Below, piece after piece: positions 1,784 through 38,042 of a stretch of DNA of 64,000 nucleotides. The DNA is from Hyunsoonleella jejuensis (lineage in GTDB: Bacteria; Bacteroidota; Bacteroidia; Flavobacteriales; Flavobacteriaceae), in the NCBI RefSeq assembly GCF_900111025.1, contig NZ_FOFN01000001.1, positions 248,001 through 312,000 on the forward strand, written 5' to 3'. Position 1 is the stretch's first letter. Every line of letters starts with the position of its first letter. Below the pieces are notes generated by a model. It was not told the origin of the DNA, did not search any database, and worked only from the letters and a program-made list of their open reading frames with translations. Both the position numbers and the translations under genes were made by a program.

Positions 1784-3127
1784 TTAATAGTGACACTTAC
1801 CACATTCTAAACCACCCATTTGTGCAGCAGTTAAATTCTCTACACCATATTTTTTGGATAATTCTTCATGAATTTTTTCGTAATAAGCATTATCTTTTAC
1901 TGCAACGTTTGTTTCTCTATGACAGTTAATACACCAGCCCATAGTTAATGGCGAATATTGATACATTACTTCCATTTCCTCTACAGGACCATGACATGTT
2001 TGACACTCTACTCCAGCAACTGTAACGTGCTGTGAGTGGTTGAAATATGCAAAATCTGGCAGATTATGTATTCTTATCCATTTAACAGGCTTAGTTTCTC
2101 CCGTATATTTTTGATTTTCATCATCCCATCCCGCAGCAGCATAAAGCTTTTTGATCTCAGCATTATAATCAACACCATACTCCTGTAATCCTTCTTGCTG
2201 AGTCTCTTCTGCAACTTGGTAAATGGACTTGTGACAATTCATACATACATTAAGCGAAGGAATACCTGAATGCTTGCTCACTCGTGCCGAGGAATGACAG
2301 TATTTACAGTCGATACCATTTTCTCCTGCATGAATTCTATGCGAGTAATGAATAGGCTGTATTGGTTCGTAACCTTGATCCACTCCTATTTGAGATAAAT
2401 AACCATAGACAAAGTAAGCACTTGATAACAAGAAAAAGATCGCCACAACAATCATTAAAAACTGATTTTGTACAAACGCTTTCCAAAGAGGTCTTCTAGT
2501 AGATTCTGGTAAATCTATATTTTGTGCCTGTGCAAAACGACGTAATGTTTTGTTCACTAAGTACAATCCGAGAGCTAGTAAAATAAAAAGAATTGCAAGC
2601 GCGCCAAGAATTATCTCGTTTGAAATACCTCCTGCACTAGCACTAGCATCTTGCGCAGCCGCAGGAGCTGCAGCAGCGGCAGGTGCTTTCTTCTCTTCTG
2701 CTGTATAGGCTAAAATATTATTTAAATCATCATCCGATAACTGTGGAAAAGCCGTCATTGCAGCACCACCGTACTCATTATAAATCTTATTTGCATAAGT
2801 ATCCCCAGACTTGATAACTCCGGCACTGTTGCGAATCCAAGCATATAACCACTCTCTATCTAGACCTTCTTCTTCTGATAAACGCGTTTCTACATTACGC
2901 AATGCAGGCCCCGTCATCTTTTTATCTAATTGGTGACAAGCCGCACAATTGGCGTTAAATAAAGCTTTTCCTTTTGCTGGGTCTCCTTCCTGAGCCGATA
3001 TCGATGTAGTAAACGCTAATAATACAATTAAGCCTAAATGAAGAATAGAGTTGCTTAATCTTCGGTGTATCACCTGTTTCATATTGTTAGTTATATTAAC
3101 TTCTAAACTTTGGTATGATTTTTTCAT
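1784..3127 (-). CDS. actA: Alternative complex III multiheme cytochrome c subunit A (six CxxCH motifs)
   Basis: Membrane-anchored c-type cytochrome of alternative complex III, carrying electrons from the quinol-oxidising core to cytochrome c or the terminal oxidase. An N-terminal signal segment precedes a monoheme domain (CAACH), then come an Ala-rich linker, two hydrophobic membrane segments, and a domain with five more heme motifs (CKYCH, CMNCH, CQTCH, CINCH, CGKCH). That makes six motifs, whereas ActA is usually described as pentaheme. The extra one is in a separate ActE-like domain. A second possible start (MKQVIH) lies 45 nt inside, at 3082, and gives a cleaner signal peptide. A well-formed promoter lies at 3164-3194. 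actB follows on the same strand. Confidence 0.9.
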   Translation of the reverse strand: MKKSYQSLEVNITNNMKQVIHRRLSNSILHLGLIVLLAFTTSISAQEGDPAKGKALFNANCAACHQLDKKMTGPALRNVETRLSEEEGLDREWLYAWIRNSAGVIKSGDTYANKIYNEYGGAAMTAFPQLSDDDLNNILAYTAEEKKAPAAAAAPAAAQDASASAGGISNEIILGALAILFILLALGLYLVNKTLRRFAQAQNIDLPESTRRPLWKAFVQNQFLMIVVAIFFLLSSAYFVYGYLSQIGVDQGYEPIQPIHYSHRIHAGENGIDCKYCHSSARVSKHSGIPSLNVCMNCHKSIYQVAEETQQEGLQEYGVDYNAEIKKLYAAAGWDDENQKYTGETKPVKWIRIHNLPDFAYFNHSQHVTVAGVECQTCHGPVEEMEVMYQYSPLTMGWCINCHRETNVAVKDNAYYEKIHEELSKKYGVENLTAAQMGGLECGKCHY

Positions 3128-29664: not shown

Positions 29665-30654
29665 TTACGAAATCAATTTTACAACATCCTTAGCAAAGTA
29701 AGAAGCAATAATATCCGCGCCAGCACGCTTAAAGGCAGTTGTGGTTTCTAGCATAATTTGGTCGTGGTCTAGCCAGCCTTTTTCAGCAGCAGCTTTTATC
29801 ATAGCATATTCACCAGATACTTGATATACGGCTACTGGCACATCAACTTCATTCTTAATTTCACGAAGAATATCTAAATAGGAAATTCCAGGTTTTACCA
29901 TCACAATATCTGCACCTTCATCAATATCCATTTCAGTTTCTTTAATGGCTTCAAAACGGTTACCATAATCCATTTGATAGCTTTTTTTATCTTTTGGAAT
30001 ATCTTGGATATCTACAGGAGCAGAATCTAAAGCATCACGAAAAGGACCATAAAAAGCCGATGCATATTTAGCCGAATAACTCATAATGCCTGTGTTTATA
30101 AAACCTTCATCTTCCAGAGCTTCACGAATGGTTAAAATACGACCATCCATCATGTCACTTGGTGCCACAAAATCAGCTCCGGCTTGGGCGTGTGATAAAC
30201 TCATTTCTGCTAAAACCTCAGCAGTTTCATCGTTGATGATTTGTCCATTTTCAATGATGCCGTCATGTCCATAAGCCGAATATGGGTCTAGAGCAACATC
30301 AGTCATTACTAGCATTTCTGGGCACACGTTTTTAACTGTTTTAATGGCGCGTTGCATCAGCCCGTTTGGATTTAACGCTTCAGTACCTTTATTGTCTTTT
30401 AAGTTGTCAGGTACTTTAACAAAAAGTAACACCGATTTTAAACCTAGTTTCCAAAGTTCTTTTACTTCGGCTTCCAATAAATCTAAACTGTAACGAAAGT
30501 AATTTGGCATTGATGGAATTTCATCTTTTACGCCCTTACCTTCTACAACAAAAAGAGGTACTAAAAAATCGTTTGGTGTTATAATGGTTTCACGAACTAA
30601 AGCGCGAATAGCTTCGTTGGTTCTTAATCTTCTATTTCTTCTAAGTGGATACAT
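29665..30654 (-). CDS. hemB: Delta-aminolevulinic acid dehydratase (porphobilinogen synthase)
   Basis: Cytoplasmic enzyme joining two 5-aminolevulinate to porphobilinogen, the second committed heme step. The 329 residues start MYPLRRNRRLRTNEAIR. The two Schiff-base lysines lie in SAKYASAFYGPFRDA (near 195) and MVKPGISYLDILRE (near 250). The metal region reads MTDVALDPYSAYGHDGI without the Cys triad of zinc enzymes, so this is the Mg-type variety. It is 27 bp after the RAYT-hemF ORF on the same strand, in the minus-strand hem series. Confidence 0.96.
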   Translation of the reverse strand: MYPLRRNRRLRTNEAIRALVRETIITPNDFLVPLFVVEGKGVKDEIPSMPNYFRYSLDLLEAEVKELWKLGLKSVLLFVKVPDNLKDNKGTEALNPNGLMQRAIKTVKNVCPEMLVMTDVALDPYSAYGHDGIIENGQIINDETAEVLAEMSLSHAQAGADFVAPSDMMDGRILTIREALEDEGFINTGIMSYSAKYASAFYGPFRDALDSAPVDIQDIPKDKKSYQMDYGNRFEAIKETEMDIDEGADIVMVKPGISYLDILREIKNEVDVPVAVYQVSGEYAMIKAAAEKGWLDHDQIMLETTTAFKRAGADIIASYFAKDVVKLIS

Positions 30655-30681: not shown

Positions 30682-31611
30682 TTATTTGTTAACCCAATCA
30701 ACAGGATTTTGTAAAACGGCTATTAATTTTTCTTCATCACTCCCAGTTTCTGGGTGGTGGTCGTACACCCATTGTACATGCGGCGGTAAACTCATTAGAA
30801 TACTTTCTATACGACCGTTGGTTTTCAATCCAAATAATGTGCCTTTGTCATGTACTAAATTGAATTCTACATAACGTCCGCGACGGATTTCTTGCCAGTC
30901 GCGTTGTGCTTCGGTATATGGCAATGCTTTTCGTTTTTCAACAATAGGCACATATGCCTCTAAGAAACTATCGCCCACTTCGGTTACAAAGTTATACCAA
31001 TTTTCCATTGTCATGGTTTCTGAAGCTTTACAATAATCGAAAAATAGTCCGCCTATGCCTCTGCCTTCGTTACGGTGAGCATTGTAAAAGTATTCATCAC
31101 AACGTTTTTTATACATTGGATAAAACTCCGGATTGTGTTTGTCACAAGCAGTTTTACAGATTTGATGAAAGTGTTTAGCATCTTCTTCAAACAGATAATA
31201 AGGTGTTAAATCTTGTCCGCCACCAAACCATTGGGCTATAATTTCTCTTGGCTCACCTGCCCTGAGCGGAGTCGAAGGGTACATTTCAAAATAACGCCAA
31301 TTTGCATGAACGGTTGGCACCATTGGATTTTTTGGATGTAACACCAAACTCAGTCCACAGGCAAAAAAATCAACATCACCTACTTTAAAATACGCTTGCA
31401 TAGATTTTGGAAGTTTCCCATGAACACCTGAAATATTTACACCACCTTTTTCAAAAACGTTACCGTTTTCAATCACGCGAGTACGCCCACCGCCGCCTTC
31501 TGGTCGTTTCCAAATATCTTCTTGAAATTTAGCTTTTCCATCAATGTCTTCCAGTTTAGAAGTAATGCGGTCTTGCAATTCTTGGATGTATTGGTAGAAT
31601 TTATCTTTCAT
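30682..31611 (-). other. hemF: HemF portion with its own probable start codon
   Basis: ATG at 31611 opens MKDKFYQYIQELQDRITSKL, where stand-alone HemF proteins of about 300 residues are expected to begin. From here the product is 309 residues, a normal HemF length once the repeat-encoded insertion is allowed for. This is likely the ancestral gene start before the RAYT element arrived. No clear TAnnTTTG box directly upstream was recognised, so expression of the short form may depend on the upstream transcript. Confidence 0.7.
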
Positions 31612-32226
31612 TGATTGATTGTCTTTCAAACCTACAAGTTCTTTGAGACCTTTCAGGTTAAGTGAAGAATTAGAGTTTTCATGACCTGCAAGGTTTTCAA
31701 AACCTTGCAGGTCTTCTTTATGCGCGTATTGAAAATTATCAATATCTTCAAATAAGCCTAAGATATATTCTTTTTCTTTAGCTACTGTGTTTTCTAAATA
31801 AGAATGAAAAGAAGTGAATTCATAGTTTTCAAAATTTTCAACTAACCCATGATTTTCGGGGTTTTTATGAACATAGATAATTAAATTTTTCAGGTAATTT
31901 TCATCTTGTATTTTTTTTCTTTTGAAGTGTTTTTCAAAGAGGCTTCCAGTTCTATTTTGTTGTTTATTATAAGCTTTAGCGTAAGCATTAAAGAGATTTG
32001 AAAATGATTGGATTGCTAATGATTCTTCCGAAATAATTTTTACAACTAGATGAAAATGATTGTTCATCAAACAATATGCAATAATATCAACTTTATTATT
32101 TAAATGTTTTTCAATCAATTTTAAGAAATAAAACATATTATCTTCATTCTGAAAAATAATATCGCTATTAATTCCTCGATTAAAAATATGATAATAATGA
32201 TCTTTTTCTAATATTTCGAGGTTCAT
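30682..32226 (-). CDS. hemF: In-frame fusion of REP-associated tyrosine transposase (RAYT) and oxygen-dependent coproporphyrinogen III oxidase
   Basis: One uninterrupted 514-codon ORF. Residues 1-175 are a Y1/HUH transposase of the RAYT type: YYHIFNRGIN, the HUH motif NNHFHLVVKI, GSLFEKHFKRKKI, and the Tyr region YLKNLIIYVHKNPE. Residues about 176-205 are a linker that includes two translated REP palindromes (DLQGFENLAG, NLKGLKELVG). From residue 206 (MKDKFYQYIQELQD, DNA 31611) the sequence is a full HemF of 309 residues: RPEGGGGRTRVIENGNVFEKGG, VPTVHANWRYF, QWFGGGQDLTPYY, RGIGGLFFDYC. HemF has a foreign PSTPLRAGEP insertion near residue 322. HemF oxidises coproporphyrinogen III to protoporphyrinogen IX. 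Either a fused protein is made or HemF initiates at 31611; the sequence does not decide. Confidence 0.9.
   Translation of the reverse strand: MNLEILEKDHYYHIFNRGINSDIIFQNEDNMFYFLKLIEKHLNNKVDIIAYCLMNNHFHLVVKIISEESLAIQSFSNLFNAYAKAYNKQQNRTGSLFEKHFKRKKIQDENYLKNLIIYVHKNPENHGLVENFENYEFTSFHSYLENTVAKEKEYILGLFEDIDNFQYAHKEDLQGFENLAGHENSNSSLNLKGLKELVGLKDNQSMKDKFYQYIQELQDRITSKLEDIDGKAKFQEDIWKRPEGGGGRTRVIENGNVFEKGGVNISGVHGKLPKSMQAYFKVGDVDFFACGLSLVLHPKNPMVPTVHANWRYFEMYPSTPLRAGEPREIIAQWFGGGQDLTPYYLFEEDAKHFHQICKTACDKHNPEFYPMYKKRCDEYFYNAHRNEGRGIGGLFFDYCKASETMTMENWYNFVTEVGDSFLEAYVPIVEKRKALPYTEAQRDWQEIRRGRYVEFNLVHDKGTLFGLKTNGRIESILMSLPPHVQWVYDHHPETGSDEEKLIAVLQNPVDWVNK
31260..31279. repeat. Dispersed repeat inside hemF
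   Basis: CCCTGAGCGGAGTCGAAGGG (plus strand) is, from memory, a short repeat very common between genes in Bacteroidota. Here it is in frame in hemF and translated as PSTPLRAG, between the WRYFEMY and QWFGGGQDLTPYY motifs, which normally are separated by a short loop. Confidence 0.75.
31629..31659. repeat. REP palindrome copy 3 (diverged, translated)
   Basis: Same 31-nt length and layout as the copy at 31683-31713 (ACCT-x-x-AAG at one end, AGGTT at the other) but with several substitutions that break the stem. On the minus strand it encodes NLKGLKELVG. It starts 18 bp upstream of the hemF internal ATG and is separated by 23 bp from the next copy. Confidence 0.6.
31683..31713. repeat. REP palindrome copy 2 (perfect, translated)
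   Basis: GACCTGCAAGGTTTT and AAAACCTTGCAGGTC make a perfect 15-bp stem around one base. It is inside the fusion ORF and encodes DLQGFENLAG. Confidence 0.9.
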
Positions 32227-32243: not shown

Positions 32244-32274
32244 GACCTACAAGGTTTTTAAAACCTCGCAGGTC
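32244..32274. repeat. REP palindrome copy 1, upstream of RAYT
   Basis: GACCTACAAGGTTTT and AAAACCTCGCAGGTC, 13 of 15 positions paired. The two mismatches become G-U pairs in RNA read from the minus strand, so the hairpin is kept in the RAYT transcript. Lies between the GNAT stop and the RAYT start. Confidence 0.88.
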
Positions 32275-32298: not shown

Positions 32299-32841
32299 TT
32301 ACTCAATCTCTTTATACAATTCATACAAATCCATATCCAACGGCGCTTCTCCTAGAGGTGTATGTTCGTTTTTTAATGTCTTAATGTATGTGAAATTACA
32401 ATTATCGGCAACTTTTACACTGCCTATATTACTTTTGTGTACAATAATTTGAAGTGTTTCTATGCCTAAATTTTCAAAAGCATATTCTGATAGTTGCTGA
32501 ATAGCCTCCGTCATGATGCCTTTGCCTTCTACATTATAATCAATACAATAGGCAAACTCACCCTTTTTTTTAGTCCAATCTAGCGCTTTTATATAAATTA
32601 AACCGACTAACTTATTCGATTCATTTTTCTTAATAGTAAATAGAAATTCTGCTTTAGTGTTGAATTGTTTTACTTTCTTTTGAACAAAAATATTCGATAA
32701 ATCTGGGGTTAAATTTTGCTCTAAAGTTTTAGGGAAATAACGCTTTAAACGGTCTTCATTGGCTACAACAAGGTTGCAGATGTGCCATGCGTCTCTTAAT
32801 TCTATTGGTGATATGTAATACGACCCTAAACTAAGCTGCAT
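32299..32841 (-). CDS. GNAT family N-acetyltransferase, RimJ/RimL type
   Basis: A 180-residue cytoplasmic acetyl-CoA-dependent acetyltransferase. The RimJ/L-like layout is seen in IELRDAWHICNLV at the N-terminus, VGLIYIKALDWTKKKGEFAYCID in the middle strands, the acetyl-CoA loop region around VEGKGIMTEAIQQLSEYAFENLG, and IVHKSNIGSVKVADNCNFT before the end. The substrate could be a ribosomal protein, a small amine or an antibiotic; nothing here tells. It overlaps the EI24 gene by 11 bp and so belongs to the hemE-trkH-EI24 string. Confidence 0.85.
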   Translation of the reverse strand: MQLSLGSYYISPIELRDAWHICNLVVANEDRLKRYFPKTLEQNLTPDLSNIFVQKKVKQFNTKAEFLFTIKKNESNKLVGLIYIKALDWTKKKGEFAYCIDYNVEGKGIMTEAIQQLSEYAFENLGIETLQIIVHKSNIGSVKVADNCNFTYIKTLKNEHTPLGEAPLDMDLYELYKEIE

Positions 32842-36385: not shown

Positions 36386-36468
36386 TAGCTTTTGGCTATT
36401 GACCTCCAGCTATTAGCTTTTTTCGTAATCGCGATGCTAACAGCTAAGAGCTAATGGCTAAAAGCCAT
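36386..36468. repeat. AGC-rich quasi-palindromic repeats between hemCD and the four-helix-bundle gene
   Basis: TAGCTTTTGGCTATT and CCAGCTATTAGC (36386-36417) face GCTAACAGCTAAGAGC and TAATGGCTAAAAGCCAT (36436-36468) in opposite orientation, so the block is roughly self-complementary. It ends at the hemCD stop codon. The unit resembles that at 35981-36029. Confidence 0.6.
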
Positions 36469-38042
36469 CACACGTAATGTTCATTAACCAACTCAATTAC
36501 ACTCTCCACAGTTGGTACCTTTGCAATCCTAACATCCTTAAAGTGCTTTTTAGCTTCTTTCGCTGTGGTTTCACCAATACAAAAAGCAATCACTTCGCAT
36601 TTATTACTGCGTACAAAACTTTCTACCGTTGAGGGACTGTAAAACATAGCGCCTTCAACAGTGTCATCAACTTTGTGTCCATCATATTTTGTTTGGTAGG
36701 CTTCTACCTCGTTTACCGTGATATTGTTGTCACTTAAAATTGTCGGCAAAGCATCTAATCTAATATCACTGCAAAAATAAGTTACTGCTGTACCTTCAAT
36801 ATATTCTACTAAATATTCGGCCAGTTTTTTAGCATTCTTTTCAGAGTGTTTAACCTTACCTATTTTCTTTTCTATAAGGCGTTTTGTTCTACGACCTACA
36901 CAGTATATATTTTTGAATTGTAACTCTACCGCTGAATAGTTTGTCACCAAAGCTTCAACAGCATTTTTACTGGTAATAATCACATTTTCTATTTCAGATT
37001 TTAAGATTTGTGGCCGAATACGATTCAAACTTATCTTAATGAAATCATCACTTTTAGAGGTAACCTTTTCATGAAATAGTTTTCTCTGATCTTCAGTTAA
37101 CTTTTTAGTAGAAAACACATTGGTTACTCTGTGCGAGTATTTAATATCATCCATTAAGCGTTTGCCGCCACGTTCGATAATATAATCTGCACAAAATACA
37201 GCTAAGTCCTCATGTTTACCTAAAGGTTCAGTACGTTCTATTTGTATTTTTTTAGAACCATCTTTACTTAAAAGGACACCTTTAAAATTGACTTCCTCAT
37301 TTTTAATATAAGCCAAAGCCCCTATAGGTGCTGTACATCCACCTTCTAATCGGTTTAAAAACTTGCGTTCTATGGTTGTGCAAATTTCGGTTTCCTCATG
37401 GTTAAGTGGCGCACAAGCTTCTTTTGTAAAATCATCTTCTTCTAACGCCGTAATCATAATGGCACCTTGGGCTGGTGCAGGAATCATCCAGTCCAAATTA
37501 ATGGCCTCTTCTGGTCTAACACCAATTCTGCCAATACCTGCAGCGGCGAAAATAGCACCATTCCAATTGCTATCTTGAAGTTTTTGCAAACGGGAATTAA
37601 CGTTACCACGTAAATCTGTAATAGTGTGCGTTGGATATCTGTTGAGCCATTGTGCTTTTCTACGTAAACTACCCGTAGCAATTACTGCATCTTTTGCACT
37701 TAAAAACTCTTCATTATCCTTAAACACCAGAGTATCATTTACATTACCGCGTTTTAAAACGGCGGCCTGAATAATACCTTTTGGCAAAACTGTTGGTACG
37801 TCTTTTAGTGAGTGTACCGCAATATCGATATCATGATTTAACATGGCAATATCTAAAGTGCGCGTAAAAATACCGGTAATGCCTAATTCGTACAGCGGTT
37901 TATCCAGCACTAAATCACCAGTAGATTTCACGGGGACCAATTCGGTTTGATGGCCTTCTTTTTCGAGTAAACTTTGTACAATTTTGGCTTGCCACAGTGC
38001 TAATTCACTGTCGCGCGTACCAATTCTAATGGTTTTAGACAT
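36468..38042 (-). CDS. hemC: Fused hydroxymethylbilane synthase (HemC) and uroporphyrinogen-III synthase (HemD)
   Basis: A 524-residue cytoplasmic protein doing two successive steps, porphobilinogen to hydroxymethylbilane to uroporphyrinogen III. HemC (1-305) begins IRIGTRDSELALWQA and contains HSLKDVPT, ATGSLRRKAQWL and the dipyrromethane-cofactor cysteine in LEGGCTAPIGALA (near 235). HemD (about 320-524) shows VIITSKNAVEAL, YCVGRRTKRLI, AYQTKYD, FYSPSTVESF and CIGETTAKEAKKH. The fusion channels an unstable intermediate. Its start overlaps the end of hemA by 8 bp. Confidence 0.93.
   Translation of the reverse strand: MSKTIRIGTRDSELALWQAKIVQSLLEKEGHQTELVPVKSTGDLVLDKPLYELGITGIFTRTLDIAMLNHDIDIAVHSLKDVPTVLPKGIIQAAVLKRGNVNDTLVFKDNEEFLSAKDAVIATGSLRRKAQWLNRYPTHTITDLRGNVNSRLQKLQDSNWNGAIFAAAGIGRIGVRPEEAINLDWMIPAPAQGAIMITALEEDDFTKEACAPLNHEETEICTTIERKFLNRLEGGCTAPIGALAYIKNEEVNFKGVLLSKDGSKKIQIERTEPLGKHEDLAVFCADYIIERGGKRLMDDIKYSHRVTNVFSTKKLTEDQRKLFHEKVTSKSDDFIKISLNRIRPQILKSEIENVIITSKNAVEALVTNYSAVELQFKNIYCVGRRTKRLIEKKIGKVKHSEKNAKKLAEYLVEYIEGTAVTYFCSDIRLDALPTILSDNNITVNEVEAYQTKYDGHKVDDTVEGAMFYSPSTVESFVRSNKCEVIAFCIGETTAKEAKKHFKDVRIAKVPTVESVIELVNEHYV

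Follow-up and report, generated by a model that had tools for sequence, protein, structure and literature searches.

A REP-associated transposase gene in frame with hemF in the heme gene cluster of Hyunsoonleella jejuensis and other Flavobacteriaceae

The window, a stretch of 64,000 nucleotides from the genome of Hyunsoonleella jejuensis, contains between positions 29665 and 42421 most of a heme gene cluster, in which hemB, hemF and a GNAT acetyltransferase gene were identified by Pfam (Table 1). We take the order of the cluster to be hemA, hemCD, hemE, TrkH, EI24, GNAT, RAYT-hemF and hemB, with hemH on the other strand. The genes at 36468-38042, presumably hemC and hemD as judged from similarity, appear to be joined in one frame of 524 aa; they are two separate frames in relatives such as L173.

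Table 1. Features at the RAYT-hemF locus, in positions of the window
Feature	Position	Strand	Basis or remark
hemB, downstream neighbour	29665..30654	minus	Pfam
RAYT-HemF fusion gene, 514 aa	30682..32226	minus	ORF and Pfam/NCBIfam searches, relatives
HemF part, from its ATG at 31611 to the stop	30682..31611	minus	Pfam; the genome has no other hemF
Linker (residues 166-205), translated from REP sequence	31612..31731	minus	translation, model
Degenerate second REP in the linker, ahead of the HemF start	31630..31658
REP palindrome within the coding linker	31683..31713		two fully complementary 15-nt arms, 1-nt centre
RAYT part (TnpA-REP-like, HUH/Y1), residues 1-165	31732..32226	minus	Pfam, NCBIfam, model, alignment
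REP palindrome upstream of the RAYT start	32244..32274
GNAT acetyltransferase gene	32299..32841	minus	Pfam

The frame that carries hemF runs through its 514 codons without an internal stop. When its product was searched with Pfam, Y1_Tnp matched residues 9-121 with 20.7 bits, below the 23-bit cut-off, and Coprogen_oxidas matched residues 210-511 with 446 bits; with NCBIfam the RAYT part reached 52-55 bits to REP_Tyr_transpos, under the cut-off of 80, and the protein scored 418 bits to HemF, above the cut-off of 297. Pfam, NCBIfam and the closest solved chains all indicate that the conserved HemF domain is complete. The RAYT part retains the HUH motif N56-H57-F58-H59 (codons of H57 to H59 at 32058-32050) and Tyr118 (codon 31875-31873), which we take to be the RAYT tyrosine from its position in a Y-x-H-x-N-P motif, and the ATG of HemF is retained as the codon of Met206 at 31611-31609. 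A preliminary description of this DNA had reported one open frame joining a RAYT with intact HUH motif and Tyr region to a full-length HemF whose normal start was still visible, and had seen no second hemF; each of these statements holds, the genome containing a single hemF. At E 0.001, Pfam and NCBIfam found transposase and HemF domains only in the window protein, and no protein splicing domain. Other genomes contribute 35 more distinct sequences with the same continuous frame, which makes chance or an assembly error unlikely. A second, different RAYT-family gene lies outside the window, at G000:C2:208250-208729 (L002), and scores 87 bits to REP_Tyr_transpos.

In a predicted structure of the protein, the RAYT part matched 4er8, the structure of a REP-associated transposase in complex with a REP hairpin (E 1.9e-6, 17% identity, TMt 0.68), and the nearest solved chains to the HemF part were HemFs (e.g. 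8t7w and 1tkl). The model was built on a shallow alignment (28 rows), with a pTM of 0.53 and a poor C-terminal HemF part; only the RAYT part, the linker and the general folds were relied on.

Altogether, parsing gave 36 distinct fused genes and 76 unfused ones, which make up 112 distinct hemF loci (154 loci minus 21 without a complete hemF and 21 duplicates). The fused fraction is not a prevalence, because the scan ordered loci by total match, which gives an advantage to those that have a RAYT. A scan of named genomes found the fusion in nine genera of Flavobacteriaceae, namely Algibacter, Flavivirga, Hanstruepera, Winogradskyella, Mariniflexile, Maribacter, Polaribacter, Aequorivita and Luteirhabdus, and it occurs in relatives as well; the preliminary description had proposed looking for the same fusion in related Flavobacteriaceae, where it is indeed found. 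In a sample of 199 Flavobacteriaceae genomes, approximately one per genus, nine were fused (G000, G047, G136, G163, G144, G178, G167, G085 and G145), and in G172 and G148 a RAYT lay directly upstream of hemF yet unfused. Four of 12 genomes in the window's genus group have the continuous frame. The hemF of G167 falls with those of Winogradskyella, and in the genus to which G167 belongs a table of matches gave a continuous match in 26 of 68 species, with frames of 490-532 aa; nine of these 26 show one stop, assumed to be terminal as in the parsed G167. A match in G513, starting at residue 87 and containing one stop, was excluded from the count of fusions. Matches in unfused genomes that start at query residues 155-204 correspond to GNAT or another stretch preceding hemF (some were judged by eye) and were rejected as fusions. 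Among fused relatives, the RAYT parts reach down to 48% identity with that of the window. In one search with the RAYT part alone, matches not joined to hemF had frames of 75-240 aa, so that no other fusion partner was encountered there; in a search of the order, in which 51 of 296 genomes matched and the top loci were examined, no frame exceeded 265 aa among the listed matches outside the window's family, and viral contigs gave no match.

The preliminary description had also suggested searching for a second hemF or a hemN. Only the latter is there: a hemN of full length, scoring above its cut-off, lies at C4:679510-680865 in the window genome, and HemF is therefore not its sole coproporphyrinogen oxidase. 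Of 12 fused genomes checked, all contain a single hemF and 11 contain hemN, the twelfth being an assembly 87% complete. Without oxygen, HemF may be dispensable where hemN is present.

The linker of the window protein (DLQGFENLAG...NLKGLKELVGL) is translated REP sequence, and its residues 179-204 have a pLDDT under 50. REP palindromes flank the window RAYT on both sides. Allowing up to two mismatches, the genome contains five REP sites, four of them at this locus (two for the reversed-pattern control), and the REPs form no amplified population in it. Thirty-two of the 36 fused genes have the palindrome in the linker, with 11-15 of its 15 pairs kept. Strong mRNA hairpins were predicted in the three linkers folded (z -4.4 for the window, -4.9 and -8.6), and the one empty junction folded gave none (z 0.1). 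The fused linkers measure 21-110 codons, and the frame is maintained throughout; either alternative frame meets a stop in 35 of 36 linkers and the coding frame in none, the latter being a consequence of how fused genes were defined. The unfused RAYT of L073 ends at a TAA created by the REP centre, a position at which fused genes carry GAA, CAA or AAA. Of the 43 REP centres in fused linkers, 39 share this phase, and all 39 are without a T, compared with a T at the centre in 6 of 40 upstream REPs; these counts come from matches with up to three mismatches, so that a few could be chance.

The start codon of HemF differs markedly between fused and unfused genes: the ATG is gone in 24 of the 36 fused genes versus 5 of the 76 unfused loci (Fisher test, p 4e-11, kinship ignored). 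A phylogenetic pairwise test of the same association was not significant (median p 0.5), with five usable pairs and no power; on well-supported branches, 2.2 pairs on average went the same way, 0.0 the opposite way and 2.7 made no difference. The replacing codons are ATC (10), ATA (3), GTC (2), GTG (2) and, once each, ACC, TTT, GTT, TTA, CTA, CTC and TTG, a variety that argues for several separate losses. Among unfused genes, 71 have ATG and three TTG, and the other two (L087 and L120) have an ATG 9 to 13 codons upstream; the ATG is also kept at all five loci where an unfused RAYT lies no more than 400 nt from hemF (L065, L069, L073, L126 and L133). At the HemF start of 21 fused genes there is no ATG, GTG or TTG; nine of these lack such a codon from the start of the linker as far as 20 codons into HemF, and in the remaining 12 one occurs farther up the linker or in early HemF. 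Flavivirga amylovorans (L049) and Winogradskyella litoriviva (L053) are examples of start-less fusions whose linkers contain no other start.

Since the ATG is lost in most fused genes, HemF would often have to be made as a chimera, and in the start-less genes it is apparently makeable only as part of the hybrid protein. The preliminary description had considered either such a chimera or expression of HemF from an internal start behind a mobile element. Its chimera agrees with the sequences of the 24 genes devoid of the HemF ATG, and its internal start is possible in the window, where A-rich sequence precedes the ATG at 31611; the 12 fused genes that retain the ATG, the window's among them, could yield two products. 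However, that codon cannot serve in the 21 genes without ATG, GTG or TTG, ten of which have ATC, and nine of the 21 have no such codon nearby. The strong hairpin in the linker and the frame held across linkers of such different lengths also speak against HemF being initiated internally, with the continuous frame incidental and the RAYT a separate product or unmade, and we regard this explanation as quite improbable.

The RAYTs adjacent to hemF or within the hem cluster, 49 in number and obtained in part from a scan requiring hemF, form one clade (support 100/99), and 22 RAYTs from elsewhere fall outside it. The 18 clade members found by searching with the RAYT part alone were all hemF- or hem-linked. 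Members occur between hemC/D and hemE (L171 and L174), between hemE and hemF (L169, L170, L172 and L173) and near hemF (L192), L173 and L174 having been dropped from the tree as duplicates; those sited elsewhere in the hem cluster are unfused. No hem gene was found in the 7-12.5 kb around 16 of the 22 outside RAYTs and around one more not in the tree, and hemF and hemB were absent from the 2.0-3.3 kb loci of the other six (L148-L153). L144 was omitted from one RAYT analysis on account of a stop in its RAYT.

Comparison of an empty with a filled locus locates the insertion site: L075 reads GAATAG|ATG and L046 reads GAATAG-REP-RAYT-REP-ATG, the two being 96-97% identical beside the site and 88-89% over 4-kb flanks. 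A second comparison (L048/L078) gave the same result, so that both put the cassette immediately ahead of the start of hemF; W. undariae (L109), with a different sequence upstream, allows no clean empty-site comparison. The preliminary description had raised the idea of a recent insertion that lost its stop. The L046/L075 difference implies that single gains or losses can be fairly recent. As a general account, however, an insertion beside hemF with a stop lost in this lineage only is highly improbable, given that the fusion is found in nine genera with RAYT parts as distant as 48% identity, and that two thirds of the fused genes have lost the HemF start codon.

The cassette is not simply inherited along with its neighbours; judging from these alignments and trees, it is present, absent or swapped among close relatives. 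In six Winogradskyella pairs the stretch upstream is 78-90% identical and HemF 87-90%, and RAYT only 58-66%; in three pairs within one RAYT lineage the RAYTs are 78-87% identical, and L050/L051 show the reverse situation (RAYT 89%, upstream 43%). RAYT and HemF data reject each other's grouping (p-AU 0.00025 and 0.006). A single clade of all fused genes was rejected on the RAYT tree (p-AU 8.75e-5), along which the genes switch five times between the fused and the unfused state; for the HemF tree the fusion label needs 25 changes, at least five of them forced by well-supported branches. Gain and loss of the cassette are indistinguishable on the trees. Codons resembling the linker (KFDIT) precede hemF without a RAYT in L095 (upstream of 4052), which also has two REPs, and in L087 (upstream of 4076); these stretches are probable scars of a lost cassette. 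One remnant of a RAYT, of 29 residues, was found above an unfused hemF, in two copies of one locus (L013/L097).

The catalytic residues of the fused RAYTs are almost invariant: H59 and Tyr118 are conserved in 36 of 36 and H57 in 35, the exception being L064, with Q in place of H57. In 20 of the 30 closest pairs the dN/dS of the RAYT is 0.06-0.26 (dS was saturated in the other 10), that of HemF is 0.03-0.12 in these 30 pairs, and that of the linker is generally above both. These values indicate that the RAYT half is under purifying selection; what its role may be, we infer from such features of the sequence. A true domestication, with the RAYT serving the host, for instance by binding REPs in hemF DNA or mRNA and tuning heme synthesis, would agree with a dN/dS well under 1, with palindromes retained beside the RAYT and with a clade observed only beside hemF or in the hem cluster. 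We nevertheless consider it unlikely, because patchy presence, swapping between close relatives and the probable scars of loss suggest a dispensable tenant, and because RAYTs elsewhere retain the same residues in most rows. The stabilised domestication event mentioned in the preliminary description agrees partly with the data, although a single fixed event does not, the fused genes not forming one clade on the RAYT tree.

The explanation that we favour, and consider probable, is that a REP-RAYT-REP cassette bound to the hem cluster has settled in frame at the N-terminus of HemF, probably more than once, and has thereby become hard to lose. The cassette lies in the heme cluster of Flavobacteriaceae just upstream of hemF, in the window between GNAT and hemF. 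In four of eight unfused relatives of the genus, the hemF ATG directly adjoins or overlaps the stop codon of GNAT, an arrangement that is generally a sign of coupled translation. The terminal hairpin of the cassette would disrupt the coupling of hemF to the upstream gene, and a RAYT frame continuing through its own 3' REP into hemF, thereby encoding RAYT and HemF as one chimera with a short, probably flexible linker, would restore HemF and could become the favoured route of hemF translation. The chimera would be a working HemF and might still act as a single-strand endonuclease on the flanking REPs, and the RAYT parts would move between species at the hemF site. The internal start of HemF would then be free to decay; once decayed, loss of the RAYT without a new start would mean loss of HemF, so that the fusion would anchor the RAYT. 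A benefit of the RAYT domain to the host is possible.

More tentatively, and with some doubt on our part, the system could be a putative homing-like HUH element, in which a RAYT lineage spreads between species into the start of hemF and settles as an in-frame N-terminal tenant. The host start codon would decay, deletion would cost aerobic heme synthesis, and addiction would thus arise through translational fusion rather than through a toxin or splicing. In inteins and homing endonucleases, a nuclease-type gene occupies a fixed in-frame site of a gene that the cell needs, and its distribution is patchy. The RAYT-HemF genes resemble them in the in-frame nuclease-type gene, the patchiness and the apparent exchange between species, and differ in having an N-terminal linked domain, HUH chemistry and no splicing domain found.

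With TnpA-REP/RAYT proteins (4er8) the window RAYT shares the HUH motif and single Tyr, the TnpA-REP fold and the REP palindromes on both sides; unlike them, it is fused in frame to a metabolic enzyme instead of free-standing, and it is bound to one gene cluster, with no dispersed REP population in the window genome. As for HemF (8t7w and 1tkl), the domain is full-length, with its 446 bits to Pfam, but it carries 205 extra N-terminal residues in the window, and its own ATG is gone in most fused genes. RAYTs have been described as single-copy, vertically inherited, domesticated transposases of unknown exact function (PMC8049555). In a 2018 survey of the superfamily, subclasses 2.4 and 2.6 are those rich in Bacteroidetes, and unexpectedly long proteins were dropped as gene fusions or annotation errors (PMC6006769). 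The portion of PMC2817692 that was available mentions neither hemF nor coproporphyrinogen, and no description of a RAYT-HemF fusion was found in the titles and abstract openings of the open-access literature. A RAYT lineage locked in frame to a heme enzyme of which there is one copy suggests a testable mechanism by which a RAYT can be kept. Alleles that are fused, unfused, start-lost or probably scarred occur naturally, in part in named isolates, and are available for testing RAYT retention.

Two further palindromic or REP-like stretches deserve mention. A palindrome of another type, CCCTGAGCGGAGTCGAAGGG, lies at 31260-31279 within the HemF coding part and has seven sites in the genome with up to two mismatches (control, 0); at this position the HemF of the window has an insertion of seven residues (PSTPLRAGE region), absent from the other 35 fused HemFs. 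In a relative, L005, a further REP-like in-frame stretch, DLSGFQNLTGL, is found at about 2937-3030, just before hemB.
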